This document shows positions 1,591 to 29,705 of a DNA stretch of 64,000 nucleotides, piece by piece. The translations under genes were made by a program, and so were the position numbers. This DNA is from an uncultured Bacteroidia bacterium (lineage in GTDB: Bacteria > Bacteroidota > Bacteroidia > Bacteroidales > F082). Positions within the stretch are counted from its first letter, which is position 1, and the number at the start of each line of letters is the position of its first letter. Location: positions 34,618 to 98,617 of the forward strand of contig CADCML010000002.1 of the NCBI GenBank assembly GCA_902802535.1, read 5' to 3'. A model generated the notes under the pieces. That model made no database searches, was not told the DNA's origin, and worked only from the letters and a program-made list of their open reading frames with translations.

Positions 1591-1610
1591 CACGTTTAAT
1601 ATTCCATACC

Positions 1611-2055: not shown

Positions 2056-2065
2056 ATATAGAATT

Positions 2066-2485: not shown

Positions 2486-2526
2486 GTAGATGAGAACTGC
2501 GCCGCGGAAGGTCATGGTAAGGTGAT

Positions 2527-3740: not shown

Positions 3741-3778
3741 GACAGTATGTTTTTAATAATGATTGTCTAAACAGTCGG

Positions 3779-3786
3779 CAAAGATA
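3779..3786 (-). promoter_or_regulatory. -7 box TATCTTTG for the kinase/DUF59 operon
   Basis: Exact TAnnTTTG match on the minus strand, 39 bases upstream of the start at 3740. Confidence 0.65.
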
Positions 3787-3827
3787 CATTTATTTTTTTT
3801 TGCTTGCTTGGATTGGGAAAAATATTG

Positions 3828-3835
3828 TACTTTTG
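3828..3835 (+). promoter_or_regulatory. -7 box TACTTTTG for tRNA-Ala
   Basis: TAnnTTTG match with a TTG 17 bases upstream (3808-3810). It starts 40 bases before the mature tRNA. Confidence 0.6.
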
Positions 3836-3867
3836 CAGCCGCTTAGGCTACAGAGCTTGAGGAAGCC

Positions 3868-3940
3868 GGGGATTTAGCTCATCTGGTAGAGCGTCAGGTT
3901 CGCAATCTGAAGGTGGCCGGTTCGAGTCCGGTAATCTCCA
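3868..3940 (+). tRNA. tRNA-Ala (anticodon CGC)
   Basis: 73 bases fold into a full cloverleaf: acceptor GGGGATT/AATCTCC, anticodon stem TCAGG/TCTGA with loop TTCGCAA, and T-arm GCCGG-TTCGAGT-CCGGT. The anticodon CGC reads GCG. The acceptor stem has the G3-U70 wobble pair that is the alanine identity element, which independently supports the assignment. CCA is not encoded. A terminator follows 14 bases later. Confidence 0.95.
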
Positions 3941-3953
3941 CGGAAACATCAAG

Positions 3954-3987
3954 AAAACCCGCTGAAAACCAGTGGGTTTTTGTTTTT
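3954..3987 (+). terminator. Terminator after tRNA-Ala
   Basis: Stem AAAACCCGCTG with CAGTGGGTTTT (one G-U pair), a 5-base loop, and a T-rich tail. Confidence 0.8.
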
Positions 3988-4213
3988 ATAAATTGAAGTC
4001 TCCTTTTTAGGGATTGTCGTATAATTCTAGATTTTTGACTTACCTTGTTGATTGTGTTTATGTTTTTTATACACAAAAGATGCTGACTTGTTACTCTCCA
4101 AGAGAATGTCGTTCACAACCGACCATTTTTTGTTCATAACCGTCTAATTTGCGCACAGTCAATCGGGAGTCCCCACCTGAGCACTCCGTACCGGGCCCGT
4201 TTGAAGCACCCGA

Positions 4214-5599
4214 CTATGCGGCTTTGGCTTTCTGCTGTTGCGTCAGCCGCTCGGCCAAAAGCACCGCGTTGGCGGTGTGGATGCCGAAGAAGATGTACAG
4301 TATCTCCGTCTCCTTCTTCCTCGCCTTGATCCGCCGCATCGCGTAATGCTCCTTCTGGATCCCGAACGAGCCTTCCATCGCAGTGGCCCTGACCCTCGCA
4401 AGCTCCTGACGCACATAGTCCTGCTCCTTCTTTTCTTGGGTGGGTCGCCCGCGCTTGACAAAAGAGGTCTGGATGCCGTTCTCCTTGCAGAAGCCGCGGT
4501 TGTCCGTGCCGGCATAGCTCGCGTCGCCGCCTATCTTTTTCACGTCCACCCCGAACAGTCGCCTGTGCATCTTGACACAGTGTTGGAGCCTCGTCCCTTC
4601 GTTGAAGGCGTTGAACGACATCTTCTCGATGAACGAGATCCCGTCCACCATGATGTTGTTGCACTTCGCGCCGAACTCCACGCTCTTTACCTCCTTGCCC
4701 CTGACGATGGGTCTCACATACGGCTTCGACACGCTCACTATCCTGTCGGGGATGCTTTCCCTCCGGTCGCCGCTGTCGAAGTGGTTGCGCTGCTGGCGGT
4801 ACACCTTCGTGATGATGTCAACCAACGACTTCTCCTTGACGGTCAACAGCTCCGGGACATCGCACCCGCGTTCCATCCTGCGTATCTCTTTTAGTATCTT
4901 CCCGAGCAGGTTCAGCAAGCGGCGCGTCATCTTCCTTGTCTGGGTGTTGCTGTGCTTGCGCTGCTTGCGGTACGACAGGCAGGCCTTCTCCACGTCAAGG
5001 TACTTCGTCCTCGGGCGATGGACACCCATGCGCCCGCTCACCTCGCACATGATTTTGTATGTCTTCTTGACGCACTCCCACAGGAGCTTCTGGTCTGTCG
5101 GGTACCGCATCTCGCTCTCGTAGCACGTCGCGTCGGTGTACATCGTGTCAAGGTCTTTCATGTACGGCTTCCATGCCTCGGCCAGCACGTCCTGCAGGCG
5201 TTGTATCTTCAGCTTGTCGGCCAGTTCCTTGGCGATGTCGTCGATCAGCTTGTAGTTCGTCAGCGGTTCTTCGGGGTCGATGCGGATGCCGCAGAAGATC
5301 TGGTAGTGGATGTTCCCGTTCAGCTGCTCCATCAGCTTCGGCGCGCTCAACTGCGTGTACGTCTTCAGGAACATCAGCGCAACCTTCCCCTCAGGGGTGA
5401 AGTAGGGCTTGGCACCCCGCTTCGGAACCTGACGCTTGTTTACAAGGCCGAAAGTCTCGGCCATCTGCCGCAGTGGCAGCACCTTCTTCATCCTTCCCAG
5501 TTCCGTGTTCTCGAACGTCTTGAGGTATAAATCGTAAAAATCGTACTCCGTGAACGGTAAACTTTGGCTTAATTCGGATATTCTTCGTACCTTTGTCAT
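4214..5599 (-). CDS. DDE transposase, IS5/IS1182-like
   Basis: The 461-residue transposase begins MTKVRRISELSQ. Residues ~65-110 (TPEGKVALMFLKTYTQLSAP, then NIHYQIFCGI) look like the DUF772 N-terminal transposase domain. Candidate catalytic acids are in TMYTDATCYESEMRYP, in GGDASYAGTDNRG, and in the C-terminal EGSFGIQKEHYAMRRIKAR. This fits a DDE enzyme of the IS5/IS1182 group, which moves the element by cut-and-paste. The reading frame is intact. About 200 bases separate the stop from the left end of the element. Family assignment is by eye. Confidence 0.85.
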   Translation of the reverse strand: MTKVRRISELSQSLPFTEYDFYDLYLKTFENTELGRMKKVLPLRQMAETFGLVNKRQVPKRGAKPYFTPEGKVALMFLKTYTQLSAPKLMEQLNGNIHYQIFCGIRIDPEEPLTNYKLIDDIAKELADKLKIQRLQDVLAEAWKPYMKDLDTMYTDATCYESEMRYPTDQKLLWECVKKTYKIMCEVSGRMGVHRPRTKYLDVEKACLSYRKQRKHSNTQTRKMTRRLLNLLGKILKEIRRMERGCDVPELLTVKEKSLVDIITKVYRQQRNHFDSGDRRESIPDRIVSVSKPYVRPIVRGKEVKSVEFGAKCNNIMVDGISFIEKMSFNAFNEGTRLQHCVKMHRRLFGVDVKKIGGDASYAGTDNRGFCKENGIQTSFVKRGRPTQEKKEQDYVRQELARVRATAMEGSFGIQKEHYAMRRIKARKKETEILYIFFGIHTANAVLLAERLTQQQKAKAA

Positions 5600-5616
5600 C
5601 TATTTTGTTTTTTCGA

Positions 5617-5662
5617 TTCCCCCGATTTTTGCTTTTCCACGGCTTTCGGGGGAATTTTTTTT
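5617..5662 (+). terminator. Hairpin with T-tract inside the IS, facing inward traffic
   Basis: TTCCCCCGA (5617-5625) pairs with TCGGGGGAA (5646-5654), followed by eight T on the plus strand. It lies in the leader between the transposase promoter and start codon. It could stop plus-strand transcription passing through, or fold in the transposase mRNA leader. Confidence 0.55.
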
Positions 5663-5672
5663 GTTCCGACCA

Positions 5673-5680
5673 CAAAGATA
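5673..5680 (-). promoter_or_regulatory. -7 box TATCTTTG for the transposase
   Basis: Exact TAnnTTTG match on the minus strand inside the IS, 74 bases upstream of the transposase ATG. Confidence 0.55.
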
Positions 5681-5826
5681 CTAAAAAGTATCCAATTGAC
5701 AATCAATATATTATATTTTCTTTAATAATATACGACTATCCCTTTTTAGTCCCTAAGAAACCTGATGAAACACTAGAAATTCATTGACAATTAAATAACA
5801 GGTGCTTGATGATTAAAGCAAATAGA

Positions 5827-5852
5827 GAAAACGGATGTAAAAGTCCGTTTTC
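5827..5852 (-). terminator. Terminator hairpin downstream of the AbiH-FGE gene
   Basis: GAAAACGGA pairs with TCCGTTTTC around an 8-base loop, 13 bases past the AbiH-FGE stop. The T-run is stronger on the plus strand (TTTTTT) than on the minus, so it may work in both directions. Confidence 0.55.
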
Positions 5853-5864
5853 TTTTTTATTTTA

Positions 5865-7829
5865 TCAATGTGAAGCACAAAGAACTATGCGAAAACCATA
5901 GTTTTCTAAAGCTGAAGTACAGCCGTCTTTATATCGAGAATGAACAGAGCATTGCTTTTCGCTGCTATCCCAACTACCACCACGTAACACTTTACTCCCC
6001 TTATTCCATTTTGGCCCAAGAGGATTTGCTTTTTTAGCATCGTCGGAAAGAAAATAATCTTTTTCATAGTTGTCCCAACACCATTCAAATACATTACCAC
6101 TCATATCGTAAAGCCCTAATTCATTAGGTTTCTTTTTGCCTACAATATGAGTGCGATCAATGCCAGTATGTTCGTCAAGAGAATTATCTCCATACCAAGC
6201 AATTCCATCTATGTTATCGCTTCCTGCAAATCTTTTATCGGTGCTTTTAACCCCACCTCGTGCTGCATATTCCCACTCTGCTTCGGTGGGTAATCGGAAG
6301 CCGTTCCCATTATTGTTGATAGAAACGATTGGTTCGTTTTCGTCTTCTTCATTTATCTGATAGCATGGAATCAGTCCGTGTTTTTTGCTTAATTCGTTGC
6401 AGAACCGAACTGCATCAAACCAGCAAACGCTTTCAACTGGAAGGTTGTCACTATTCATTGGTCCTGGAACAAGTCCATCTTTAAAAGTGCTGGGAGTTCT
6501 ACGTGTAACTTCCTTGTATTGCTTCTGAGTAATTAGGAACTTGCTGATATAAAATGAGTCAACGCTTGTTTGATGAAGAGAGTCGCCATCTCCCATATTA
6601 AACACGCCTCCTTCAACATACGAAAATGAATAATCATTACAAAAAAGATTATTCGCCTTTTGATTTCTTTGGGCATCTAATAAGCTAAATTGTGGGATGT
6701 TGTCTTTAGGGTTGAAAGGAACCAACCTCATTCGTGCATTATATTTTTCTTTACCGCTTTCACCAAATATTCGATAAATATTACTGGCTTTTTCCTTGAA
6801 ATCAGCCATGCCGTTTTTCCCCGCATAATGGAAGTATTTTATCCTTTTGCAATGTTCGCTCTCAAACAAATAGCGCAACAATGTTCTATCTCCGTTCGTA
6901 CAAGAGTGGCCGAAAATGAATATTTCGAAGTCTTCAAAATCTTGATCCGTTGGAGATTTCTTTAAAGCATTCATTAACTCTTGATATTGTCCGCTTTGGA
7001 AATACAAAACAGATTTGCTGTATTTTAAAAACTCATTCTGTTTAGATTCAACAATATCAACACTTTCTTGTGCCATCTCGTCTCCATATCCAAAAATCAT
7101 AGGGTTATTCTCGTCAAACAATTCGCCGTGAATATATATGGGTTTAACTTGGATGCCACGCTTCTTTATTTCTTCTATATATAATTCTGGAGTTCTTGTA
7201 TAATTGAAATTGAGCAACACAATTCGATGATTCGAGTTCGTACGGTTTTCAGGAGTTGTTTCGATGAAATCTTGCAACATAGAATCAAGCATTTCGGGCA
7301 TAAATGATAACACTCCTTCGATGTTGAAAACATCTTTTTTCCAGAACAATTGGCATTTTTCATTGTAGTAGGTTTTCAGAAAGCTTTTGAACAAGCTTCT
7401 GATTGTATCAAAATCTTCGTTTAACCTCGATATTTCTGACTTTACACCACGTTCTTGCTCAGATGAATATGTTTCCCTGCATTCATTTAGACATTTATAA
7501 TACAAATCTTCAATGCCAGACCAGTATGGAGTTGTGAGTTCTTTTTCGATGCGATCCCAAAACCTATTCGTTATTGTAACACATCTCCTTAGCTCTTCTC
7601 CACATCGAGGTATATACGCTTGATGAATGTCTCCTCCGACGCTTTTGTATGAATAGATTTTTGTTTTCCTTTCAAAATTGTCAATTTCCGGCCATTGCTC
7701 GTATTGAGTCTTGATCAGTTTATACTCTTTATCCCAATACCAAGAAATAAAATCATTGTAACTGGTTTTTAACCCATGGGCTAAATCAAATCCGTTGCCT
7801 ATTAGAATGATACGATTACAATTTGTCAT
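5865..7829 (-). CDS. AbiH-family protein fused to a SUMF1/FGE-like domain
   Basis: A single 654-residue frame joins two domains. Residues 1-~385 are AbiH-like: an N-terminal Rossmann-type start RIILIGNGFDLAHGLKTSYN, then VLLNFNYTRTPE (204-215), IYIHGEL (231-237) and IFIFGHSCTNGDRTLL (303-318). Residues ~404-652 are a formylglycine-generating enzyme-like (SUMF1, C-type-lectin fold) domain: GGVFNMGDGD, GFRLPTEAEWEYAARGG, ELGLYDMSGNVFEWCWDNY, LRGGSWDSSEKQC and ENYGFRIVL. Of the two cysteines that bind copper in true FGE, the first position is Ser622 and only the second is Cys627. Sulfatase activation is therefore unlikely and a sensing or binding role is more plausible. AbiH proteins are known abortive-infection factors. 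It is the last gene of an operon with the KaiC-like and SIR2-like genes (57-base gap). The region is AT-rich relative to neighbours. Confidence 0.85.
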   Translation of the reverse strand: MTNCNRIILIGNGFDLAHGLKTSYNDFISWYWDKEYKLIKTQYEQWPEIDNFERKTKIYSYKSVGGDIHQAYIPRCGEELRRCVTITNRFWDRIEKELTTPYWSGIEDLYYKCLNECRETYSSEQERGVKSEISRLNEDFDTIRSLFKSFLKTYYNEKCQLFWKKDVFNIEGVLSFMPEMLDSMLQDFIETTPENRTNSNHRIVLLNFNYTRTPELYIEEIKKRGIQVKPIYIHGELFDENNPMIFGYGDEMAQESVDIVESKQNEFLKYSKSVLYFQSGQYQELMNALKKSPTDQDFEDFEIFIFGHSCTNGDRTLLRYLFESEHCKRIKYFHYAGKNGMADFKEKASNIYRIFGESGKEKYNARMRLVPFNPKDNIPQFSLLDAQRNQKANNLFCNDYSFSYVEGGVFNMGDGDSLHQTSVDSFYISKFLITQKQYKEVTRRTPSTFKDGLVPGPMNSDNLPVESVCWFDAVRFCNELSKKHGLIPCYQINEEDENEPIVSINNNGNGFRLPTEAEWEYAARGGVKSTDKRFAGSDNIDGIAWYGDNSLDEHTGIDRTHIVGKKKPNELGLYDMSGNVFEWCWDNYEKDYFLSDDAKKANPLGPKWNKGSKVLRGGSWDSSEKQCSVHSRYKDGCTSALENYGFRIVLCASH

Positions 7830-7886
7830 AGTGTTTTATGGAATGAGAGGTTAAACATTATGTTGTTGATTGGATAAATATTGTAG

Positions 7887-10172
7887 CTACAGTGTCTTAT
7901 CGGCAATGGCGGTCAGTTGCTGTCTGGTTCTGAGACTACCTTTGCTGTCGTCTCCTTTAGTCATATAAATATAATTGGTCATGTAGTTGCCTTTTGTGAG
8001 TGCTGAAAATGTGGGAATAAACAATTGCTCAGAATAGAGACAGGGGTAGCAATATTGGAGCAAGTTCAAATCACCCATGATTATATGTACTTTCTTATAG
8101 TAATGGAAAATTTGTTTTTGAGGGTTGGGGCCTTCTATTATTCTCTGGATTTCTCTTGCAATAGCGCTTACTTGTTGCTCTATGATATACAAAAATTCAT
8201 CGGCATAAATACAGCCTGCCCTAAAGCCAAAGAAATGTAAGTTTTTGTATGATATATTTTTCAGATTCTTTTGGGTTTGTTTCATTGGGAATTTTTCCCC
8301 AAAAAATTCCCAAAAGTCTTTTCGACTTCTTTTCAAATCAAGAAAAAGGATGTGATCTTCTGGGTTTATTTCCTTAATGGCACGATAAATAGCAGCTTCT
8401 TCGTCCTTATAAGATGAGATGGCAAATAACTCGCCTTTATTGATGTCTTTGTATTTTGTTCCTGTGTCAGGATAATTATTGCGAAAATCCTTATAGTTGT
8501 TAGCTAAAGTATTAAGATTTTCCAAAATAATTTTCTCATCGTTACTTTCAATAGGATCCTTGGCGTTGACATTTTCATTGATCCAATAGTTGTAAGTTAA
8601 ATCGTTTAACGGTAACATAGCCTCGGCGGTTGACTCGTCAATATAATTCCTGCGTGATAGTGTTTTATGTAAACTGGGAATGACTTCAACCCCCGCATTG
8701 CGCATTTTGTATTGATGCCAACCGTACGTGTTTTTCTGGTATAAACATTTGTAAATACGAAGCTCTTTTTTAGTGTGGTTGGTAATATCGTCAATGCGGT
8801 TCCTAAGCTCCATGATGATGTCAGAGTCAAGTCGAGAGAGAGAAACGTTGTCGTTAGTGTTAAGAATGCCAATGAAACACTTGGTTCGCATCAAATTGAT
8901 TAAAGCATTAATGGGACAATCCTCAATTTCTTCTGGCGTCAACAACGAAAGACCATCTATCATTATACAATTATAATGTGTGTCCTTTTGCCTCTCCAGT
9001 TTTGTCATTAGATTGTAAAATACCGTCCGCCCATCAGCCATTTTATTACCATCATTCAATTGATCCCTGCCCCAAAAATCGATTCGAGGTAACTTTTTAT
9101 TTTTTAAATCAATCTTTAAAAGCAAAGTGTCGTTACTGTCATCATTTTTGGTCTGCTTCCTTAGTTGGATTCCGTGTGTCCGCGTATTAAAATAGATGAC
9201 TCCTGAGGACAATGCTTTTTGTAGACAGTCTTTGGTATCATCGTTGTGATTTTTATCGTAATCGCATATTATTTTTTGGTCATTTTCATTGGATGGTTCA
9301 GCAAGGAAATCAATTGCTTTTTCCAAAGTTGTTTCTTTAAAATGGGGATATTGTTCTTTTTTAAATTCTCTTTTTTTAAATATTCCTCTGATTTTTTCTA
9401 AATCACCACCAGTTTTTTTGTCATCCCATCCATTGGCTTTACTTTCGATGTTCTTTATCAATCGTTTCACATAAAAATCATAATAGAACTCCTCAACCTT
9501 AGCTTCGTCTTTGTTTAATGATACAAAAAGCATTTTGGCATTTTCATCATCAGAATTATTTTTGTTTTTTTTGTATGATTTGTCTATTTTTTCCAATAAT
9601 GATTCTAATGAATTATAGTTTAGATTGCTAACAATATTTTCGATAGCAGTTTTTATATTATTTATCATTCCTTCGTCCTCAAGATTGGCTAATATAGTTT
9701 TAGCATCTTCAAATTCAAGTTTTTCAACAAAACTGGAATCTCCAACTTTAGAGATGGCTTGTAATGCCAAGAAGGTTGTGATTTTGTCATCCAATAATCT
9801 ATTCCATCTATCGGTTTCTATCATTGCATTGTCTTTTGCCAAAGTTTCATTTGCGATTTTTTCCTTAATCGTCAGCTTTGTATATTCGTATGCTGAAACA
9901 AATTGAGGATTGTCCTGTGAATCATTGTTCTCCCCTCTATGAAGTCCTTCGGTCTTGATAGAATCGTTCAATCCCTCGCACATTTGCATCGCAAGGTGGA
10001 TTTTGTTGGTGCCATGCTCTCCTCTGATAACGACCATGAGGTTCGGGTTTTTCTCCTCGAATTCTTCAAGATGAAGTCCTCCGTGGAACAGATTGTCCAA
10101 ACCATGAATTTTTGTGCTTAGTTTTTTATTGGTCAGATTTGTCTCATTTACTCGTTCTTTCTCATTTGCCAT
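7887..10172 (-). CDS. Large degenerate KaiC/RadA-like ATPase
   Basis: The 761-residue protein has a KaiC-like layout stretched by insertions. There is a HGLDNLFHGGL start (23-33), a P-loop position IRGEHGTNKIHLAMQMCEGL (49-68), a YFNTRTHGIQL strand (~327-337), a Walker B-like NCIMIDGLSLL (401-411), and a KaiC-type segment KMRNAGVEVIPSLH (489-502). The P-loop reads GEHGTNKI, where KaiC has GxxGxGK[T/S]. The lysine is kept, but the glycine before it and the Thr/Ser after it are lost. The C-terminal ~180 residues resemble a second, P-loop-less lobe (HIIMGDLNLLQY, 696-707). Residues ~80-300 are a charged helical insertion. It overlaps the upstream SIR2-like gene by 11 bases. It may sense or oligomerise rather than hydrolyse ATP; that is inference. 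Confidence 0.7.
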   Translation of the reverse strand: MANEKERVNETNLTNKKLSTKIHGLDNLFHGGLHLEEFEEKNPNLMVVIRGEHGTNKIHLAMQMCEGLNDSIKTEGLHRGENNDSQDNPQFVSAYEYTKLTIKEKIANETLAKDNAMIETDRWNRLLDDKITTFLALQAISKVGDSSFVEKLEFEDAKTILANLEDEGMINNIKTAIENIVSNLNYNSLESLLEKIDKSYKKNKNNSDDENAKMLFVSLNKDEAKVEEFYYDFYVKRLIKNIESKANGWDDKKTGGDLEKIRGIFKKREFKKEQYPHFKETTLEKAIDFLAEPSNENDQKIICDYDKNHNDDTKDCLQKALSSGVIYFNTRTHGIQLRKQTKNDDSNDTLLLKIDLKNKKLPRIDFWGRDQLNDGNKMADGRTVFYNLMTKLERQKDTHYNCIMIDGLSLLTPEEIEDCPINALINLMRTKCFIGILNTNDNVSLSRLDSDIIMELRNRIDDITNHTKKELRIYKCLYQKNTYGWHQYKMRNAGVEVIPSLHKTLSRRNYIDESTAEAMLPLNDLTYNYWINENVNAKDPIESNDEKIILENLNTLANNYKDFRNNYPDTGTKYKDINKGELFAISSYKDEEAAIYRAIKEINPEDHILFLDLKRSRKDFWEFFGEKFPMKQTQKNLKNISYKNLHFFGFRAGCIYADEFLYIIEQQVSAIAREIQRIIEGPNPQKQIFHYYKKVHIIMGDLNLLQYCYPCLYSEQLFIPTFSALTKGNYMTNYIYMTKGDDSKGSLRTRQQLTAIADKTL

Positions 10173-11208
10173 CTTTTAACTCTCCTAGTAATTTGTATAT
10201 ATGATTGAAACCTTGGTTGTCGTATATAACTGTCATCCCATTTTTAGTATAAAACTGATTCTTGATTTTGTTAATGGTGATTGTGTCGTTACTTGCATTC
10301 CTTGTAGCAGTAATATAATACAATTTGTTTTTATGCTTTTCTTTGACATAATGAAGTAACCGTTGAGAGGTGTAGTCTTCTAAAGACAAGCCGCAAAAAA
10401 TGCAAGTGTATTGTGAGAGGAAATGTAGCTGGGACGCGATTTGCCATGTATAGACATTGCGTGAATCCTCATAAAACTCGTCCAACGTAAGAACAATGCT
10501 ATTGTTTTTTGGAGCTTGTATTTCGTTGTATCGAGGAATGTATCCGTGAACATGATAGATGTTAAAGCTATCTATTGAAAAATCATCATTTTTCCAATCA
10601 CAAACAATACGTGGTTTCCTATGAATGAAAGAAACGCCATCATGTTCATATTTTTCTGAAAGCAATAGTATAGCATCTTCCAAAAACCTGTCATAATTTT
10701 GTGTCACAACGGCTTTTATATTGGCACAATGCAAAACCATATCGGCCAATTGAAACAAAGAATAATAGACGCACACTCTTTTGTGCGAATTAATAAACTC
10801 GTCACATGCTTGCCTTAAATCATCCATGGAGCATTGTCTGTACAAAAAATCCTGAATTAGATTAACGTAGGATGTGTTCTTTAATGTTTGCTTTACTATG
10901 GTGGATTTGGTCATCCTGGTAAGTGCTTGGTCCACTTGATCTTGTAGTTTTGAGTTTTTATAGCTGAGCGACAAATCCCCAGTTAAAGCATCCCTTATAT
11001 CTTTTGAGCTTTCGTCATATGGCAAAATCATTTGTATTGAGTGGGTCAACAAATGATTTAACAAATCATCCCATGAAAAGTTTCTCCCATTGCGATAAGA
11101 TGGAAAATCAATACCTGTTCCCACAAAAAGGACAACGGGCCGTCGCCTTTCGAAGTCCCTTTTCAGATACTCAAAATTAGTTATGTCACTTAATTCTTGA
11201 CTACCCAT
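10162..11208 (-). CDS. SIR2-like (putative NADase) protein
   Basis: The frame can be read from a TTG at 11229. I place the start at the ATG at 11208 (348 residues), because the likely promoter covers the upstream codon. SIR2-like features in order: VVLFVGTGIDFPSYRNGRN (25-43), AVVTQNYDRFLED (166-178) with the candidate catalytic Asn171, YHVHGYIP (218-225) with His221, IVLTLDEFYEDS, and TCIFCGLSLEDYTSQRLL (268-285). Defence SIR2 proteins deplete NAD+ when triggered by phage. It is the first gene of the operon with the KaiC-like ATPase (11-base overlap) and AbiH-FGE. The active residues suggest it is an effector; the trigger is unknown. Confidence 0.85.
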   Translation of the reverse strand: MGSQELSDITNFEYLKRDFERRRPVVLFVGTGIDFPSYRNGRNFSWDDLLNHLLTHSIQMILPYDESSKDIRDALTGDLSLSYKNSKLQDQVDQALTRMTKSTIVKQTLKNTSYVNLIQDFLYRQCSMDDLRQACDEFINSHKRVCVYYSLFQLADMVLHCANIKAVVTQNYDRFLEDAILLLSEKYEHDGVSFIHRKPRIVCDWKNDDFSIDSFNIYHVHGYIPRYNEIQAPKNNSIVLTLDEFYEDSRNVYTWQIASQLHFLSQYTCIFCGLSLEDYTSQRLLHYVKEKHKNKLYYITATRNASNDTITINKIKNQFYTKNGMTVIYDNQGFNHIYKLLGELKDGK

Positions 11209-11226
11209 AGCATAAATAATTCTTTG

Positions 11227-11234
11227 CAAAAATA
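11227..11234 (-). promoter_or_regulatory. -7 box TATTTTTG for the SIR2/KaiC/AbiH operon
   Basis: TAnnTTTG match 18 bases upstream of the ATG at 11208. Its position argues against the TTG start at 11229. Confidence 0.55.
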
Positions 11235-11448
11235 TAAAAAAACATAATTGATTCTTTCATACATATAGAAATGATTAAAAAAACGAACAAAAAATGCAGA
11301 ATAGGCATCGTCAACCCTATCACAAATACAACCAAATCATCTGTCCATTTTTCTCACTAATAGAAGAGATAAAAATGGATGAAATTGTAATCGTCTGGGG
11401 AGAATAAGATAATCTTTTGCCCTTTGGCTATTTGTTGATAGTTTTTCG

Positions 11449-11456
11449 TAAATTTG
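11449..11456 (+). promoter_or_regulatory. -7 box TAAATTTG for type I system 1
   Basis: TAnnTTTG match 51 bases upstream of the hsdM start; TTTG at 11423-11426 could act as the -33 element. Confidence 0.45.
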
Positions 11457-11507
11457 CCTCCTCTATAAGTATATTCTTTACTATAGATTAATGTATAATA
11501 GGCTTTT

Positions 11508-14195
11508 ATGAACAAACAACAACTCGCAGCAAAGATATGGGCTTCGGCCAACAAAATGCGCTCGAAGATAGAAGCCAATGAGTATAAGGATTACATCCTT
11601 GGCTTCATTTTCTATAAGTTCCTTTCTGACAATGAAGTTCGTCATTTGAAGGAGGAGGCATATTGGTCGGATGAGGACATCGAGAACGACCTCAACGAAC
11701 AGGATAAGGAAACGGTGCGCTATTGCCAAGATAACCTTGGATATTTCATCTCATACGACAACTTGTTCTCCACTTGGCTTAGCCTCGGCGTGGATTTCAG
11801 CGTTTCAAATGTGACGGATGCTCTAAATGCGTTTACCACTCACATCAGTTCTGAGCCCAACAAGCGGCGTGTCTTCAAAGATATTTTCAAGACACTTTCC
11901 GAGGGCATCACCAATCTGGGTGGCACACCGGCTGACCGTACAAAAGCCATCGTTAAGCTTATCCGACTTATCAAAGACATCCCGACCGACGGGAGTCAAG
12001 ATTATGACGTGTTGGGTTTCATATACGAATATCTAATTGAGAATTTCGCCGCAAACGCTGGAAAGAAAGCGGGTGAGTTCTATACTCCTCATGAAGTTGC
12101 ACTACTGATGGCAGAGATTGTGGCGGAACATCTGAAAGATCGTGAAAGGATTTCCATCTACGACCCCACAAGCGGTTCAGGTTCGCTGCTAATCAATATC
12201 GGTCGGGCTGTTGCCAAATACAAGAAGGATAAGTCACAGGTGATGTATTATGCCCAAGAGCTGAAAAAGAATACCTACAACTTAACCCGAATGAATCTTG
12301 TCATGCGGGGTATCGCTGCCGATAATATCTTGGTTCGTTGTGGCGATACCTTGGAAGAAGACTGGCCTTTCTTCAAGGAAAACGAAGAAGGAAAGATTAT
12401 CGAAGGCACCTATTACAAACAGACGGTGGATGCCGTGGTGAGTAATCCGCCGTACTCCCAAGCATGGAACCCAAATGGTAAAAAAGAAGACCCACGTTTC
12501 AAAGATTACGGAACCGCTCCACGAGGCAAAGCCGACTATGCTTTCCTCTTGCACGACCTTTGCCACATCAACAACGATGGCATTGTCACAATCGTGCTGC
12601 CTCACGGCGTGTTGTTCCGCCCTGGTGAAGACTATACCATCCGAAAGAACCTTATCGACAACAACAACATTGATGCAATCATAGGCCTGCCAGCCGACAT
12701 CTTCTTCGGCACAGGCATTGCCACTCTCATCATGGTGCTGAAGCGTAATCGTCCCACAACCGATGTGCTTTTCGTCGATGCTTCGCGACTGTCGGTGAAG
12801 GCTGGAAAGAAGAATAAGCTTACCGCCTCTGATATCCGTCGTATAGCCGATACTGTTATCAATCGGACTGAAACACAGAAATTTTCACGTTTGGTGAGTC
12901 GCAAGACCATAGAAGAAAACGACTACAACCTCAATTTCCCACGCTATGTGGATTCGTCGGATGCACTTGAAACGTGGGACGCTTACGGAACCATGTTTGG
13001 AGATGTTCCTAATCATGAGATTGACATGTTGAACAAGTATTGGGAGACCTTCCCCTCGCTTCGTGCCAACCTGTTTGCACCTAAGAAAGACTCTCCCTGC
13101 TCTTGCCTCACAACGGACGATGTGAATAGAAGCATTAGAGAGAATGCAGATGTAATGGCATGGGAAGCTGCAATACATGAGAATCTTCAGTCGCTGCCCG
13201 ACTATCTTGACGGCCGTATTATTGGTAATATGCTTTCTCTGGACCTTCACCAAGAAGAGGATGTTCTCGCCGAAAACTTGTACAGTCGTTTTGAAGGAAA
13301 GCCGCTCATCGACCGTTACGATGTCTATCAGCTGCTCGACAATCAATGGACGGAAATATATACCGACCTCGAAATGCTGCAAACCGAAGGTTTTCAGGCT
13401 GCGAAACTTGTTGATCCCAATATGGTAATCAAGAAATCGAACAAGGAAGAAGAAGAGGACAAAGAAATTCAAAAAGGCTGGAAAGGCCATATCCTTCCCT
13501 TTGAGCTTGTACAAAAGACTCTTTTGAAGGACGAGTATGACGCTCTGCAACAGAAAAAAGAAGCGTTGGAAGGTACAATAGCATCATTCACCGACTTGAT
13601 ACAGGAAATGCCAGAAGAGGATAAGGAAACCTACCTCAACGATGACAACACAGAGTTTAATATGGACAAGGTAAGTGAAGCCATGCTCGAAGTGCTTGCA
13701 AACAGATGCCTTAAAGAAGACAAGGTCACCAAGAAGAATGTGTTGCAGCGGGTATGCAAACTGTCGCTATGGGAAAAATTGCCTGAGGAAAGTCCCGAAA
13801 GGGTGTTGGCTGAAGCCGTATGCCTGATAGAACAAACCAAACAACTGAAGAGAGACATCACTGCACGCGAGAAAGCCTTGCACGAACTCACCAAGACCAC
13901 CATAGAAACTCTTTCCGACGAGCAGGTGCGGATGCTCCTGCATCTGAAATGGGTGGAGCCTCTCTACGAGCAACTGTTGTCGATGCCTAGCACCATTGTG
14001 GACAGTTTATCCGCCAAAGTAAATGGACTTGTGACAAAGTATGAAACGGGGCTGGTTGAAGTAGAGCGTCAAATCACAGACGCAAGCGATGGATTGTCCA
14101 TGATGCTTGACGACCTGACTGGATCCAAGTTTGATATTCAGGCATATAAAGAACTTGAAAAACTCTTAAAACCTCAAAACGATGATGTTGAATAA
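11508..14195 (+). CDS. hsdM: Type I restriction-modification methyltransferase HsdM (system 1)
   Basis: The 895-residue protein modifies adenine using S-adenosylmethionine, as part of the M2S1 methyltransferase and the full R2M2S1 restriction complex. It has the N-terminal HsdM helical domain (QQLAAKIWASANKMRSKIEANEYKD region), EFYTPHEVALLM, motif I YDPTSGSGSLL (218-228) and the catalytic NPPY (313-316). Classical HsdM proteins are ~520 residues. Here the C-terminal ~370 residues are an added helical, charged region with coiled-coil character (from about 640). It overlaps hsdS by 14 bases. The order is hsdM-hsdS-rhuM-hsdR. Confidence 0.95.
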   Translation: MNKQQLAAKIWASANKMRSKIEANEYKDYILGFIFYKFLSDNEVRHLKEEAYWSDEDIENDLNEQDKETVRYCQDNLGYFISYDNLFSTWLSLGVDFSVSNVTDALNAFTTHISSEPNKRRVFKDIFKTLSEGITNLGGTPADRTKAIVKLIRLIKDIPTDGSQDYDVLGFIYEYLIENFAANAGKKAGEFYTPHEVALLMAEIVAEHLKDRERISIYDPTSGSGSLLINIGRAVAKYKKDKSQVMYYAQELKKNTYNLTRMNLVMRGIAADNILVRCGDTLEEDWPFFKENEEGKIIEGTYYKQTVDAVVSNPPYSQAWNPNGKKEDPRFKDYGTAPRGKADYAFLLHDLCHINNDGIVTIVLPHGVLFRPGEDYTIRKNLIDNNNIDAIIGLPADIFFGTGIATLIMVLKRNRPTTDVLFVDASRLSVKAGKKNKLTASDIRRIADTVINRTETQKFSRLVSRKTIEENDYNLNFPRYVDSSDALETWDAYGTMFGDVPNHEIDMLNKYWETFPSLRANLFAPKKDSPCSCLTTDDVNRSIRENADVMAWEAAIHENLQSLPDYLDGRIIGNMLSLDLHQEEDVLAENLYSRFEGKPLIDRYDVYQLLDNQWTEIYTDLEMLQTEGFQAAKLVDPNMVIKKSNKEEEEDKEIQKGWKGHILPFELVQKTLLKDEYDALQQKKEALEGTIASFTDLIQEMPEEDKETYLNDDNTEFNMDKVSEAMLEVLANRCLKEDKVTKKNVLQRVCKLSLWEKLPEESPERVLAEAVCLIEQTKQLKRDITAREKALHELTKTTIETLSDEQVRMLLHLKWVEPLYEQLLSMPSTIVDSLSAKVNGLVTKYETGLVEVERQITDASDGLSMMLDDLTGSKFDIQAYKELEKLLKPQNDDVE

Positions 14196-15384
14196 TCCAG
14201 ATAGCAGGTTTAAAGAGTATGATGTAAACTGGTCGATGTTACCAGCATCTGACATTTTTATGGTGGAAACAGACAAGGGACATCCAGAACTTCCAGTATT
14301 GTCTGCTTCGCAGGAATTTGGTATGGTGAAACGCGACAACATAGGCATCAACATGCAGTACAGTAAGCAAAACGTTGCTTCATATAAACGCGTCCAACCT
14401 GGTCGATTTGTGATACATCTCCGTTCTTTTCAGGGAGGTTTTGCACACTCTGCCATTGAAGGCATTACCTCTCCAGCTTATACCGTGCTTTCGTTGAAAG
14501 AACCTCAAAAGCATGATGACTATTTTTGGAAATATCTTTTCACCTCGCCTGAGTTTATCAAGCGACTTGAACTTGTTACTTATGGCATCAGAGACGGTCG
14601 CAGTATTAGTGTTGAAGACTTCTTTGAGCTTCCGTTTTGCTATCCTTCCACTCCAGAAGAACAGCAGGAAATTGCACAGTTCTTTTCGCGATTAGATACA
14701 CTTATTGCCGCAGAGGATAAGAAACTCGCTAAATTGAAGAACATGAAAGCAGCTTCGCTCGAAAAAATGTTCCCAAAACAGGGTGAAACCGTCCCGCAAG
14801 TGCGTTTCAAAGGTTTCTCTGGAGAGTGGTCTATAGGAAAATTGAGCGATATGGCTGGGTACTATCGCCATTCTAATGAAAATGTGCATCATCAGAATCT
14901 CTTATCTTTAAGTTATGGTAAGATTGTCAGAAAGAATATCAAAAGCAAGAAGGGCCTTCTTCCAGCGTCTTTTGATACATATCAAGTAATCAAGGAGAAT
15001 ATCATTGTGTTACGTTTTACTGACTTGCAAAATGACCATAAGAGTTTAAGAGTTGGTATCTCTAAAGAAGAAGGAATCATTTCTCCTGCTTATGTTTGCT
15101 TAGAGTGTAAAGATAATATTGTCCCTGATTATCTTTATCTTTTGTTGCATTTCTATGATTTGTGCAAAGTCTTTTATAGTATGGGCGATGGAATGCGTCA
15201 GACGTTAAGTTATTCTGACATCAAAGACCTTGCAATACAAATACCGAATGATCCCAAAGAGCAAGAGAAAATTGTTTCATTCTTCTCCCGCCTAGATATC
15301 TTAATTTCTGCACAAGAGTTAAAAATTTGCAAGTTACGCTCGCTGAAGAAGTCATTCCTTGAAAAGATGTTTGTCTCACAATAA
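14182..15384 (+). CDS. hsdS: Type I specificity subunit HsdS (system 1)
   Basis: The 400-residue protein sets the DNA target of system 1. It shows the two-fold HsdS design: two target recognition domains (about 15-150 and 210-345). Each is followed by a conserved helix with matching wording, EEQQEIAQFFSRLDTLIAAEDKKL and EQEKIVSFFSRLDILISAQELK, ending SLEKMFP and SFLEKMF. The two recognition domains differ, so a bipartite asymmetric target is expected; it cannot be predicted by eye. No second hsdS or recombinase is adjacent, so there is no sign of phase-variable shuffling. The start is one of two adjacent ATG codons. Confidence 0.93.
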   Translation: MMLNNPDSRFKEYDVNWSMLPASDIFMVETDKGHPELPVLSASQEFGMVKRDNIGINMQYSKQNVASYKRVQPGRFVIHLRSFQGGFAHSAIEGITSPAYTVLSLKEPQKHDDYFWKYLFTSPEFIKRLELVTYGIRDGRSISVEDFFELPFCYPSTPEEQQEIAQFFSRLDTLIAAEDKKLAKLKNMKAASLEKMFPKQGETVPQVRFKGFSGEWSIGKLSDMAGYYRHSNENVHHQNLLSLSYGKIVRKNIKSKKGLLPASFDTYQVIKENIIVLRFTDLQNDHKSLRVGISKEEGIISPAYVCLECKDNIVPDYLYLLLHFYDLCKVFYSMGDGMRQTLSYSDIKDLAIQIPNDPKEQEKIVSFFSRLDILISAQELKICKLRSLKKSFLEKMFVSQ

Positions 15385-15395
15385 AAGTTTGCGTT

Positions 15396-16769
15396 ATGGA
15401 TACGAATAAAACGTTGTTTGATCCCGAGGAGATGCAGTCGCCATTTGATGCCATCAAGGAGGTGGACAGTGAAGGTCGTGAATGGTGGAATTCGCGGCGA
15501 CTGGCGCAAATACTTGGTTACCAGAAGTATTGGAATTTTGAGCGGCTGATGGATAAGGCTGCCACATTCTTGCAACAATCCAAGGGACTCGACTTGAGAG
15601 AACACATGGTGGAAATCACGGAGATGGCTCAACTGGGAGCCGGCACTACGCGCCAGGTGACATCTTTGTTGCTTTCGAGGACAGCTTGCATAACTATTGC
15701 CACAAACGCCGACCAAAGAAAACCCATGGTGAAAGCCGCTGGGGAATATTTTTCGGACCGAATAACATCGAAGGAATTGGCCACCAGTGTAGAAGGAAAT
15801 GTGCTGATGTACCGTTCGAGTACCGGCAAAGTGAATATTACTGTTCTTTTCAATAACGAGACATTCTGGCTGTCGCAACGCAGGATGGCGGAGCTATTCA
15901 ATGTGACGGTCCAGGACATCAACTATCACCTGATACAGATTGGCGAAAGTGGCGAAGTCCATTTGTCCGATGCTATCAAAAAAATTTTGATGCCGTCGGA
16001 CAAATGGGATGAACAGGGCGTTTTGATGTACAATTTGGACGTGATTATTGCCGTCGGCTATCGTGTGAACAGTTATGAAGCAACGCAGTTTCGAATCTGG
16101 GCACGCGAGGTGTTGAAACAGTATATCATCAAAGGCTTCGTGATGGACGACGAGCGGCTGAAGGGCAAGGATCCGTTTGGTGCCGACTACTTTGAGGAAC
16201 TGCTGGAACGTATTCGCGAGATACGTACGTCGGAACGACGTTACTATCAGAAAATCACGGACATCTATGCCGAATGTAGTATTGACTACGACAAGGACAG
16301 CGAGACAACGCGAACGTTCTACAAGACGGTGCAGAACATGATGCATTATGCTGTTACCCACCAGACGGCTGCCGAGATTGTTTACGACCGCGCCGATGCC
16401 GAGAAGCCCCACATGGGACTAATGACCTGGAAGAACGCCCCCGACGGACGAGTGGTGAAGAGCGATGTGACAATTGCCAAAAACTATTTGTCGGAAAAGG
16501 AGGTAAATGACCTGAATCTTCTGACCACCGCATTTTTGGATATAGCCGAACGGCGGGCTCAACGAAAGATGCTGACAAAAATGGCAGACTGGAAAGCCGT
16601 GCTGGAACAATACCTGAAAGTGTCAGATGCTGACATCCTGCCCGATGCAGGCACTGTCAGCCATGAAGAAGCAGAAACAAAAGCATTTGAAGAGTACGAA
16701 AAATTCAGGAGAATTCAGGACAGGACACTGCTTTCTGACTTCGACAAGTTTATAGAGGAACTAAAATAA
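15396..16769 (+). CDS. DinD/Bro-N-like domain fused to RhuM
   Basis: The 457-residue protein is two domains. Residues ~20-120 resemble the DinD/Bro-N antirepressor-type domain: REWWNSRRLAQILGYQKYWNFE, LREHMVEITEMAQLGAG and TRQVTSLLLSRTACITIATNAD. Residues ~125-440 match RhuM: MYRSSTGKVNITVLFNNETFWLSQRRMAELF, YNLDVIIAVGYRVNSYEATQFRIWAREVLKQYIIKGF. RhuM proteins are common in genomic islands beside restriction systems; their activity is unknown. It sits inside the type I operon, 11 bases after hsdS and 8 bases before hsdR. A role in control or protection of the restriction system is an inference. Confidence 0.85.
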   Translation: MDTNKTLFDPEEMQSPFDAIKEVDSEGREWWNSRRLAQILGYQKYWNFERLMDKAATFLQQSKGLDLREHMVEITEMAQLGAGTTRQVTSLLLSRTACITIATNADQRKPMVKAAGEYFSDRITSKELATSVEGNVLMYRSSTGKVNITVLFNNETFWLSQRRMAELFNVTVQDINYHLIQIGESGEVHLSDAIKKILMPSDKWDEQGVLMYNLDVIIAVGYRVNSYEATQFRIWAREVLKQYIIKGFVMDDERLKGKDPFGADYFEELLERIREIRTSERRYYQKITDIYAECSIDYDKDSETTRTFYKTVQNMMHYAVTHQTAAEIVYDRADAEKPHMGLMTWKNAPDGRVVKSDVTIAKNYLSEKEVNDLNLLTTAFLDIAERRAQRKMLTKMADWKAVLEQYLKVSDADILPDAGTVSHEEAETKAFEEYEKFRRIQDRTLLSDFDKFIEELK

Positions 16770-16777
16770 GCCTGCGT

Positions 16778-19700
16778 ATGTACGAGTACGAACACGAACT
16801 GCCATTTGAGAAAGACCTTGTCAACCTGCTTGCAAAAGAGAAGGGTTGGGAAGGCGAAATATTTGTAAATCCCTCGGAAGAGGACCTGATTAAGAACTGG
16901 GTAAACATCATCTTCAACAACAACAGACAACCCACTCGTTTGGGCGACTACCCGCTGACGGAAGGAGAAATTGCACAGCTCATGGAGCAGATTGACAATG
17001 CGGCTACTCCATTGCAGAAAAACGAGTTGATTACGCATGGTGAACTGATGATTGTTCGCGACAATCCCGAACACAAGGAAATGTTTGGAAAGACAGCCAC
17101 GCTTTACATCTTCGACCGCAATGAGATTGCTCGTGGCAGGTCTATTTACCAGATAGCTCGTCAACCTAAATTTCCTACGGCAGACCCTATCATGCGTGAC
17201 CGAAGGGGCGATGTGATGCTGCTTATTAATGGATTGCCAGTTATCCATGTGGAACTGAAGAGTTCGAAGGTGAATTTGCATACAGCCGTGGAACAGTTGC
17301 AGACTTATAGCGATTTGGGCATTTATAGCAAAGGGCTATTCTCGCTTGTGCAAATCTTTGTGGCAATGAAACCCGAAGACATGTGCTATTTGGCCAATCC
17401 GGGCATGGGAGCGAAGTTCAACAAAGACTACATCTTCAAATGGGCAGATGCCGACAACAATCCGCAGACACATTGGAAGTATATCGCAGAGACCTTCCTG
17501 TCCATTCCGATGGCTCACCAGCTGATAGGTTATTATACTGTTGCGGACAAGGGCGACAACACGCTGAAGGTGCTTCGTTCATACCAATACTATGCTGCCG
17601 ACCAAATTGCGAAAAAGGTGGAGATTGTCAACCAGATGCATTGGGATGGCAACGACATTTATGGAGGCTTCATAGAACACACTACGGGTAGCGGTAAGAC
17701 ACTGACAAGCTTCAAGGCGGCGCAACTTATTGCCAAACGGAAACTGGCTGACAAAGTGGTGTTTCTGGTTGATCGTATCGAGCTTGGCACACAATCGAGC
17801 GAAGAATATGTCAATTTCACAGATTCTTCGATTGATATTCACGACACTGAGAACACCGACTCTCTCATTGGCAAATTAAAATCACCTGAAAAAGATGGTG
17901 AGATACTCATTGTTACCTCCATACAGAAACTCAGTCGTATTCGTCGCGACAATTCCAACAAGGCCGACATCGACAAAATCAACACCAAACACATTGTCAT
18001 CATCGTGGACGAGTGTCACCGCAGCACCTTTGGCGATATGCTCATCAATATCAAGCAGACGCTCGACCATGCTATTTTCTTTGGCTTCTCTGGTACACCG
18101 ATACGTGACGAGAACAGCCACGAAGGTATGACTACAGCCGATGTTTTCGGCAAACAGCTTCATCGGTACAGCATTGCCGACGGCATACGCGACCACAATG
18201 TCTTGGGTTTTGACCCTTATATGGTGGAGACCTATTCCGAGTTTGATGTGAGACAGGCTGTTGCTTTCGACAAGGCAAATGTCACTTCCGTAGAAGAAGC
18301 CTTTGCCGATGAAAGAAAAAAGAAGGTCTATTTGAAGTATATGACCGAAGTGCCAATGGCAGGTTACAAAGATGATACCGACATCTACCACAAAGGGATA
18401 GAAGATGAGTTCGGAGCTGTGAATTATGACACCGACAAACATCGTCGAGCGGTGGTGTCGGACATCAAGAAGAGATGGATGCACAATAGTCTTGGAAATA
18501 AGTATCATGCCATTTTGGCCACCTCGAGCATTGCAGAAGCCGTTGATTACTATCATCTGCTGAAAGAAGAAATGCCACACTTGAAAGTGACGTGCTTGTT
18601 CGACCCCGGGAACTTCAGTGACGACGAGAATGAGGATGGCAATGGCCGCAAACTCACACAGGCAGAGAAGGAATTGGCACTTGTCGAGATTTTCAAGGAT
18701 TACAAGCAGAACTTCGGAGTAGAATACAAGTTGTCTCAGCACAAGAGTTTCAAAAAAGACTTGGCCCAACGACTTGCACACAAGAAACCTTACCTGAATC
18801 TTGCGCCAGAGATGCAATTGAACATCCTTGTGGTAGTGTGGCAGATGCTTACAGGATATGATTCAAAGTGGGTCAACACCCTCTATTTGGACAAAGAACT
18901 GAGGAATGAACATCTAATCCAAGCATTCTCCCGCACCAATCGTCTGAATGGCATAGACAAACAGAACGGAATTATACGTTACTACCGCTATCCGCATTCG
19001 ATGAGACGCAATGTTGATGATGCCTTTAAGCTATACTCAGGCGATAAGCCTTATGACCTCTTTGTGCTGAAACTGCCAGACAATTTGCAAGGCTTGAATC
19101 AGACTTTCATAGATATTCGTGAGTTGTTTGAGGGTTGCGGTATTGAAAACTTTGAACGTCTACCCGATGGACAAGCAGATAGAGCCATGTTCGCCAAATG
19201 TTTTCAAGATCTCAACAAATTCCTGTATGCTTCCCGCCTACAGGGATTCACATGGGATAATCTCAATCCGACGATGCCTGATGGTAGCACAATAGAAGTG
19301 CTAATAGACGAAGAAACATACAACATTCTCTTGCAACGTTACCATGAATTGGCAATGGGCGGTGGTGGTGGCGGTGAAGATATTCCGTATGATATTGATA
19401 CGCAGATTTCCGAATTGGCTACAGGTAAGATCAACACCGACTATATGAACGCCAACTTCACAAAGTATGTACGTTCATTGCAAGCCAACGACCCGACAGA
19501 AGAACAACAAAAGATTCTCAATAGCTTGCATAAATCCTTTGCTACGCTGTCGCAGGAGGAACAAGCATACGCCAATGTGTTCTTGACCGATTTCTTGAAT
19601 GGCGATATACAGTTGGAAGAGGGTAAGTCTTTCCATGACTATATTGTAGAATACCAGACACGAGCTCGCAACAACCGTACGCAACGCTTTGCAGATGCCC

Positions 19701-20428
19701 TTGGATTGGATGCCGAGTTGCTGCGTGACGCGATGAGGAATGTGTTTTCGGAATCGGATATTACCAATGCTTTGTTGAAACCGATTAAAGACTCTATGGA
19801 TTTGGACAAGGCCCAATCCTATATTGAAGCAATTGAGGGAGAACCTGTTCCGAAACGAAAAGTCGTTGTAAAAGTTGACGAACTCATAAGACAGTTTATC
19901 TTGCAAGGAGGTTTTGAAATCGAAGTTCCTTCATCCTATGAAGACATGGAGTTTGAGCTATCAATGGCCGCTGAAGGATTTGAGTATTATAAGCTGACTC
20001 CTACTAATCATGGCATCATTGACATTTTCGGAGGTGACGACTCTATTCTCGTTGGTTGCTATAAGACCAAGAAACACTTTGAGTGGATTAAGGCCAACAA
20101 CCTGTATAATATCAGACTAGGAGCCAGAAAAGGCTCGTTGGAAAACGAACAAGCCCTGCTTGAAAGAACCACATTCTTGGTGCTATATAATGTTGATAAA
20201 CCGAGCAACGTGTTAGCGTATAAGATAATCGGACATCAGGAAATGACAGGGAAAGAGTTGATAGAAATTGGGTATCCTAATCCAAATGCAGGCAAACGGT
20301 ATATGACATTCAGACTTTCGCCGTCGTCGATAGATTTGTCCAGGCTTGAAGAAGAAAAACTAATTGAAAGGCTGGTGGGGAATATGCCTAATCATATTAA
20401 CGGTGCTCCAGTGATTATTGAACCGTAA
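16778..20428 (+). CDS. hsdR: Type I restriction endonuclease subunit HsdR (system 1)
   Basis: The 1216-residue motor-nuclease translocates DNA with ATP and cuts at a distance from the HsdS target. The N-terminal nuclease has the PD-(D/E)XK residues D145 and E159/K161 in RRGDVMLLINGLPVIHVELKS. The helicase core has Walker A TGSGKT (about 304-309), the DECH box in IVDECHRST (about 410) and FSGTPIRDE. A run of six glycines near residue 865 (MGGGGGGED) marks a flexible linker before the C-terminal helical region that binds the methyltransferase. It is the last gene of the system 1 operon. Confidence 0.95.
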   Translation: MYEYEHELPFEKDLVNLLAKEKGWEGEIFVNPSEEDLIKNWVNIIFNNNRQPTRLGDYPLTEGEIAQLMEQIDNAATPLQKNELITHGELMIVRDNPEHKEMFGKTATLYIFDRNEIARGRSIYQIARQPKFPTADPIMRDRRGDVMLLINGLPVIHVELKSSKVNLHTAVEQLQTYSDLGIYSKGLFSLVQIFVAMKPEDMCYLANPGMGAKFNKDYIFKWADADNNPQTHWKYIAETFLSIPMAHQLIGYYTVADKGDNTLKVLRSYQYYAADQIAKKVEIVNQMHWDGNDIYGGFIEHTTGSGKTLTSFKAAQLIAKRKLADKVVFLVDRIELGTQSSEEYVNFTDSSIDIHDTENTDSLIGKLKSPEKDGEILIVTSIQKLSRIRRDNSNKADIDKINTKHIVIIVDECHRSTFGDMLINIKQTLDHAIFFGFSGTPIRDENSHEGMTTADVFGKQLHRYSIADGIRDHNVLGFDPYMVETYSEFDVRQAVAFDKANVTSVEEAFADERKKKVYLKYMTEVPMAGYKDDTDIYHKGIEDEFGAVNYDTDKHRRAVVSDIKKRWMHNSLGNKYHAILATSSIAEAVDYYHLLKEEMPHLKVTCLFDPGNFSDDENEDGNGRKLTQAEKELALVEIFKDYKQNFGVEYKLSQHKSFKKDLAQRLAHKKPYLNLAPEMQLNILVVVWQMLTGYDSKWVNTLYLDKELRNEHLIQAFSRTNRLNGIDKQNGIIRYYRYPHSMRRNVDDAFKLYSGDKPYDLFVLKLPDNLQGLNQTFIDIRELFEGCGIENFERLPDGQADRAMFAKCFQDLNKFLYASRLQGFTWDNLNPTMPDGSTIEVLIDEETYNILLQRYHELAMGGGGGGEDIPYDIDTQISELATGKINTDYMNANFTKYVRSLQANDPTEEQQKILNSLHKSFATLSQEEQAYANVFLTDFLNGDIQLEEGKSFHDYIVEYQTRARNNRTQRFADALGLDAELLRDAMRNVFSESDITNALLKPIKDSMDLDKAQSYIEAIEGEPVPKRKVVVKVDELIRQFILQGGFEIEVPSSYEDMEFELSMAAEGFEYYKLTPTNHGIIDIFGGDDSILVGCYKTKKHFEWIKANNLYNIRLGARKGSLENEQALLERTTFLVLYNVDKPSNVLAYKIIGHQEMTGKELIEIGYPNPNAGKRYMTFRLSPSSIDLSRLEEEKLIERLVGNMPNHINGAPVIIEP

Positions 20429-29680: not shown

Positions 29681-29705
29681 TAGATTACAATTTGAAGATG
29701 CAATA

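Follow-up and report, generated by a model that had tools for sequence, protein, structure and literature searches.

The 64,000-nucleotide stretch analysed here (the window; positions 34,618 to 98,617 of contig CADCML010000002.1, from an uncultured bacterium of the Bacteroidales) carries on its minus strand three intact open reading frames (ORFs), which encode a SIR2-like protein, a KaiC-like protein, and a fusion of an AbiH domain with an FGE domain (AbiH-FGE). Comparison with related loci suggests that the genes for the first two proteins are conserved together as a unit, in which SIR2 is replaceable by a membrane protein. On balance we favour the reading, far from certain, that these two genes are an abortive-infection-type module and that AbiH-FGE works on its own.

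The SIR2-like gene (10162..11208, minus strand, 348 aa, in-frame ATG at 11208; Pfam SIR2_2, E 8.7e-13) is followed by the double-domain KaiC-like gene (7887..10172, minus strand, 761 aa), which starts 11 bases inside it, and, after a gap of 57 bases, by AbiH-FGE (5865..7829, minus strand, 654 aa; Pfam AbiH 2e-29, FGE-sulfatase 3e-43). The ORF list thus bears out the placement of the three genes in the initial annotation, which had combined them in one candidate defence operon, to be given up if the genes rarely co-occur elsewhere. Since no other KaiC-like locus combines the three genes in the DNA fetched, the trio is not supported as a system; the pair stands.

A conserved gene pair and its exchangeable effector

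After removal of copies (L001–L003, L005, L011, L025, and L027), the sample holds 11 KaiC-like loci: the window, L004, L006, L007, L008, L009 (the same locus as L005), L010, and L129–L132. L009 is a contig of an uncultured Bacteroidales metagenome-assembled genome (MAG; G266), of the same order as the window genome, and L010 is a locus of a Verrucomicrobiota MAG. In five loci (the window, L004, L007, L010, and L130) the SIR2 gene lies directly upstream of the KaiC-like gene. The two are tightly packed, with overlaps of 11 bases in the window, 4 in L004, 16 in L007, and 4 in L010, and a 4-base gap in L130. The order is the same in 5/5 SIR2-type loci, which supports the proposal as far as this pair is concerned; it is kept in Bacteroidota and in L010, at 21–27% KaiC identity. 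Close matches to the SIR2 profile (>340 bits) always adjoin a KaiC-like gene, except in the recombinant remnant L028, and a KaiC match is found at 0/19 loci of distant matches (<150 bits).

The six other loci (L006, L008, L009/L005, L129, L131, and L132) all carry a gene for a polytopic membrane protein directly downstream of KaiC. No SIR2 match was found in any of them; the contig of L009 ends about 100 bases upstream, and a SIR2 gene may lie beyond its end. The membrane proteins of L008 and L005 have about eight hydrophobic segments. The membrane proteins give no firm match, either in Pfam, with which two were compared, or in PADLOC, where one of five reaches '4TM effector' at 0.0037. In L008, an AAA_16/STAND-like ATPase gene (12732–15164) directly follows the KaiC-membrane pair.

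In a tree of the 11 KaiC-like proteins, the root of which is arbitrary, SIR2-type and membrane-type members are parted by one split with a support of 97/95 (90/90 in a tree of 8 rows), and 0 and 2 of 500 shuffles of the effector labels score as low. If L010 is the outgroup, we infer that the membrane type would derive from the SIR2 type.

The predicted effector and the predicted switch

The SIR2-like protein is a predicted NADase effector. Its predicted catalytic-site residues, Asn171 (codon 10696–10698, minus strand) and His221 (codon 10546–10548, minus strand), which had been singled out for mutation in the initial annotation, fall in invariant T-x-N-x-D and H-x-H-G motifs and are kept in 5/5 SIR2 rows. 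By sequence, its nearest solved relatives are FAM118B (5.1e-8) and the KomC NADase (8.9e-5), which are sirtuins of immunity. Pfam finds the SIR2_2 domain only, and a weak PADLOC match to ThsA occurs in one of the five SIR2 rows, the window row not being the one. The Pfam matches of the trio include no SLOG or TIR domain, long DSR C-terminus, STAND domain, or prokaryotic Argonaute (pAgo)/APAZ domain.

The KaiC-like protein of the window matches Pfam KaiC below threshold (E 0.055), and NCBIfam yields nothing of use for it. Its assignment is backed by fold comparison, in which a low-confidence model matches double-domain KaiC. Among the 11 members of the family, six match the NCBIfam KaiC model PRK09302 (best E 2.8e-5). 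The protein had been described as degenerate, and this is confirmed by its P-loop, GEHGTNKI; the full Walker A motif GxxxxGK[ST] is present in 1/11 members (L010). We read it as a divergent member of the KaiC family, whose RecA-fold proteins form rings, and predict that it is a switch and may form rings itself. The view that the trio matches no described system finds agreement in PADLOC 2.0.0, none of whose models fits the KaiC-like protein convincingly. Nor was a KaiC-based defence system found in the literature searched (mostly open papers), among the matches listed: in the available text of PMC6393860, KaiC appears in the reference list only, and in that of PMC5512222 it is mentioned solely as the sister of RadA.

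The favoured reading starts from gene order, conservation, catalytic residues, and effector exchange, which are observed, and from folds modelled at low to moderate confidence. The KaiC-like protein would be the constant part, serving as scaffold, lock, and probably infection sensor, with a trigger that we infer. SIR2 would be the killing part: released from the ring or assembled on it, it would hydrolyse NAD+ and so stop the infected cell. In the sister branch, the KaiC-like protein would drive the polytopic membrane protein, presumably leading to membrane damage. AbiH-FGE would be another effector with a SIR2 fold, to which a lectin-like FGS domain is joined, and is perhaps co-transcribed behind the module. 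NADase activity, ring formation, trigger, and phage defence are thus all predicted properties; phage defence is presumed because the pair follows the patterns of SIR2-HerA and of long-B pAgo systems, has restriction-modification (RM) and AbiH genes as neighbours, and lies at an accessory site. The KaiC fold is best known from the circadian clock. If the reading is true, the fold has a further role in bacteria, that of a switch in immunity by cell suicide, wired to either an NADase or a membrane effector, as for long-B Argonautes.

Weight of the evidence

Several observations weigh against this reading. The loci are few (n = 11), and the KaiC-like family is rare across the genome samples. Matches occur in 2/344 genomes of the order sample (one being the genome of the window itself), in 3/395 of the phylum sample (the same genome, one with a double-KaiC that is distant, and one with a short match only), in 2/288 of the Verrucomicrobiota sample (the one already known and a short match), and in 6/301 of the Bacteroides gallinarum family sample (one already known, four that are new and full-length, and one that is unrelated). 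In the tree, the longest branches, those of the window and L010, meet, and their placement is unsure. The model of the KaiC-like protein is poor (mean predicted local distance difference test score, pLDDT, 46.7), and the comparison of the A3 profile with KaiC sequences of the PDB is weak (best E 4.5e-4, over 55 N-terminal positions). P-loops are degenerate in 10/11 members and the second seems lost in the window copy; ATP-driven sensing may for this reason be gone there. Finally, 7/11 loci lie in capsular polysaccharide clusters, on the capsule strand, and not in islands of defence genes.

The state of the P-loops bears on the possibility that the pair is decaying or selfish cargo and that the window copy is non-functional. 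The degenerate Walker A motif is in keeping with decay, as are the long branch and the long low-confidence insert of the window KaiC-like protein. Two genes are broken into two frames, the KaiC gene of L009 and the membrane gene of L006, and L028 holds a SIR2 remnant. In the window, however, all three ORFs are intact, the SIR2 active site is kept, and so are overlap and order. We regard decay as an improbable account of the window copy.

L028 (NZ_CP103120.1, a plasmid record of B. thetaiotaomicron) carries its SIR2 remnant at 6070–8178 among capsule-type genes. The remnant is truncated at both ends and runs into an ORF resembling mannose-1-phosphate guanylyltransferase, and the KaiC-like gene is gone; for this reason the locus is not counted among the 11. 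Also left out were L024 (G625), a distant double-KaiC without a SIR2 or membrane gene, and the matches in G635, G782, and G1242, which are short or unrelated. The double-KaiC of L024 (7113–9137) has a first P-loop that looks intact and lies near a transposase gene and an AAA-HNH gene pair, as judged from sequence; neither a SIR2 nor a membrane partner was found at this locus. A pattern scan of genome contigs finds at least five KaiC-like loci.

Carriage of the window KaiC-like gene by phages or plasmids was considered and rejected. In tblastn searches it has no match in plasmids and none in viral contigs (profile A1 also gives none), and the L010 protein has no match in plasmids. The single match in the phage collection is L004 (MT835535.1). 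This record is labelled Bacteriophage sp. and carries glycosyltransferases and the SIR2-KaiC pair; because its genes are glycosyltransferases, it is probably mislabelled bacterial capsule DNA.

Capsule clusters

The loci in capsule clusters are L004, L006, L007, L129, L130, L131, and L132. Glycosyltransferase genes lie on both sides of the pair in L004, and DegT and Polysacc_synt_2 genes precede it in L007. L006 directly follows NusG/UpxY and UpxZ, with a UDP-sugar dehydrogenase gene about 3–4 kb after it. In L130, NusG comes before the pair and a flippase homologue about 5 kb after it, with other genes between. L131 has nucleotidyl transferase, flippase, and pyruvyl transferase genes, and L132 has NusG, UDP-sugar dehydrogenase, and flippase genes. 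At L129, a UpxY-like gene is recognized by weak similarity and a flippase gene by homology, neither with a Pfam match at 1e-4.

This setting, and above all the position of L006 behind NusG/UpxY and UpxZ, is what would be expected if the pairs monitor or adjust capsule synthesis or the state of the envelope, with no part in phage defence and with the window copy as a stray. We consider such a capsule-linked function unlikely. The exchange of SIR2 for a membrane protein is typical of killing effectors, and the unit contains no capsule enzyme. Four of the 11 loci are outside capsule clusters: the window (beside RM genes), L008 (beside an insertion sequence (IS) and the AAA_16/STAND-like gene), L009 (in the phage-like contig L005), and L010. 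Variable capsule loci could, moreover, simply collect cargo.

Four capsule loci (L006, L129, L130, and L132) were scanned for invertible promoters upstream of their NusG/UpxY-like genes. In L006, inverted repeats of 25 nt (88%), 163 bases apart, lie before NusG/UpxY at 8262–8474. Between them stands a promoter-like TAAATTTG of the type TAnnTTTG, which we take to be the Bacteroidota -7 consensus, pointing away from the capsule genes; the arrangement looks like an invertible promoter. L130 has a longer imperfect inverted repeat further upstream, and no inverted repeat is present upstream of the NusG/UpxY-like genes of L129 and L132. The motif ARACGTWCGT has one occurrence in a repeat arm of L006 and one within a gene of L130, and forms no pairs.

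That the susceptibility of Bacteroides to phages depends on surface variation has long been known. It is conceivable, though in our estimation unlikely, that individual, switchable capsule operons of Bacteroidales carry a suicide module gated by KaiC, with a SIR2 NADase or a membrane protein as its effector, that is armed together with the capsule against phages using or passing that capsule, with the KaiC ring as the trigger. The window copy would then have moved to a conventional defence island. If such receptor-matched immunity is real, the repeated capsule-locus home would bring surface variation and suicide immunity inside the cell together in a single switchable operon. Phase-variable capsules are described as essential for Bacteroides living with phages in the accessible text of PMC12118408.

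The AbiH-FGE gene

The third gene combines an AbiH domain (about 6756–7829, minus strand) with an FGE/FGS domain (about 5883–6620, minus strand). The AbiH domain scores 103.9 bits in Pfam against a cut-off of 30.9, the PADLOC AbiH match covering residues 6–35 only. By fold comparison it has a SIR2 fold, and it carries the invariant motifs of the AbiH family. The relation between SIR2 and AbiH rests on fold, since profile comparison of the two gave no link.

The initial annotation gave the FGE-like domain a possible sensing role in a system of all three genes, a proposal that we regard as improbable. The genes share a strand and a similar low GC, no terminator-like site is listed by the consensus scan in the 57-base gap between KaiC and AbiH, and one such site follows AbiH-FGE. 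FGS domains have, in addition, been proposed as sensors of invaders in other conflict systems (PMC8195603, in the part available). Yet within the fetched DNA an AbiH match is found in none of the ten other KaiC-like loci (L009 offering only about 100 bases upstream), and 37/37 other strong AbiH ORFs are genes of their own, unfused to FGE. Lactococcal-type AbiH, moreover, protects alone, as stated in the accessible part of PMC12322248. Because the AbiH domain has a SIR2 fold and the other AbiH ORFs lack FGE, AbiH-FGE is read as a separate neighbouring one-gene system, which may share a transcript with the two-gene module.

At 80% coverage, AbiH-FGE is matched in 0/496 plasmid and 0/19 phage records. 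Hypervariation of the FGE tail by a diversity-generating retroelement was rejected, as the genome has no second copy: when a template repeat for its final 333 bases was sought in the assembly, which is about 85% complete, the top match apart from the gene itself was 30 bases long at 87% (E 0.047).

The island in the window

The trio is AT-rich, as had been stated, with a GC of 33–38% over 6001–11000 against 46–55% over 1–6000 and 39–48% over 11001–20000. The flanks agree with the earlier description as well. On the left lies a transposase gene (4214..5599, minus strand; Pfam DDE_Tnp_1_2 and DUF772), and on the right type I RM genes (11508..20428, plus strand), namely hsdM, hsdS, a RhuM-like gene, and hsdR, the last named from sequence. 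A tRNA-Ala(cgc) gene (3868..3941, plus strand) forms the left edge of the island.

The consensus scan places a terminator-like hairpin past AbiH-FGE (5824..5855, minus strand) and lists sites at 5824–5855 on each strand. The start of SIR2 is preceded, at a distance of about 20 bases, by TATTTTTG (11227..11234, minus strand), a match to TAnnTTTG; the minus strand of 5865–11500 contains two such matches, and TATTTTTG is hence weak as promoter evidence.

The island is accessory, because its transposase, trio, and RM genes were not found at this site in flanks of the same genus. The neighbouring kinase gene is found in 23/30 same-genus genomes. Seven flanks were fetched, of which one (L115) was too short, and six stretches of 14–19 kb were compared. 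In 6/6 of these the kinase gene and tRNA-Ala adjoin each other and tblastn finds no match to any gene of the trio, to the transposase gene, or to the RM genes; in 3/6 the tRNA is followed by a DUF389 gene. A related genome (L112) has a Schlafen/AlbA_2 gene (8249–9616) near this tRNA-Ala.

Further genes of the window deserve mention. The RhuM-like gene (15396–16769), between hsdS and hsdR, matches the PADLOC candidate PDC-S05 (E 5.6e-218). Directly behind hsdR, a small ORF (20707–21201) contains the motif HELGH, which resembles that of zinc proteases. A second HsdM-like ORF (29652–31511), recognized from sequence only, perhaps belongs to a second type I RM system.

Comparison with known systems

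The pair is like SIR2-HerA (Nezha, Gao19) in that a predicted SIR2 effector has as its gene partner a predicted ring ATPase of the RecA superfamily, and in that the catalytic Asn and His are kept in the window SIR2. SIR2-HerA forms a 12:6 complex and depletes NAD+ on infection. A SIR2 protein with a hexameric ATPase of the RecA type is thus an established design for defence: Nezha requires the SIR2 active site (N168, H227) as well as HerA, and NAD+ is lost, according to the accessible text of PMC11559045. The pair seems to differ in its ATPase, which by fold comparison on a poor model would be of the KaiC type and not of the HerA/FtsK type: neither Pfam nor PADLOC gives the window KaiC-like protein a match to a HerA, FtsK, or VirB4 family, and its structure matches are to KaiC-type proteins. 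It also differs in a P-loop that is mostly degenerate, in an effector that is exchangeable for a membrane protein, and in its frequent capsule-locus home.

With the long-B pAgo systems BPAS and BPAM, the pair shares a constant gene, in the pair that of a presumed sensor, and an effector that is of the SIR2_2 type in some subclades and of the trans-membrane type in others. The available part of PMC10620215 describes these abortive systems as having SIR2 or trans-membrane effectors, separate subclades, and co-evolution. The constant part of the pair is KaiC-like, and the family matches of the trio include no Argonaute gene.

KaiC and KaiC-like ATPases have, by fold comparison, the same double RecA-domain architecture, and a clock or autophosphorylation function is a feature of the KaiC family. 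The present family differs in that the canonical first P-loop is found in L010 only and the partner is SIR2 or a membrane protein; no clock partners of KaiC were seen at the KaiC-like loci. Among sirtuins, FAM118B and KomC (SIR2_2) are the closest solved sequence relatives of the window SIR2, the partner of which is KaiC-like and not a FAM118A paralogue or KomB. FAM118B activity requires filament assembly, as reported in the accessible text of PMC12700824. The third gene agrees with AbiH in the invariant motifs of the family and the SIR2 fold; it differs by its fusion to the FGE/FGS domain, seen nowhere else in this analysis. The extra domains and partners of Thoeris, DSR1/2, AVAST5, and SPARSA are absent from the Pfam matches of the trio.

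Taken together, the pair appears to resemble SIR2-HerA and the long-B pAgo SIR2/trans-membrane systems in its working and to be a member of neither. The design itself is known; what would be new is a KaiC-like protein in the place of the ring ATPase, beside a SIR2 or a membrane effector.

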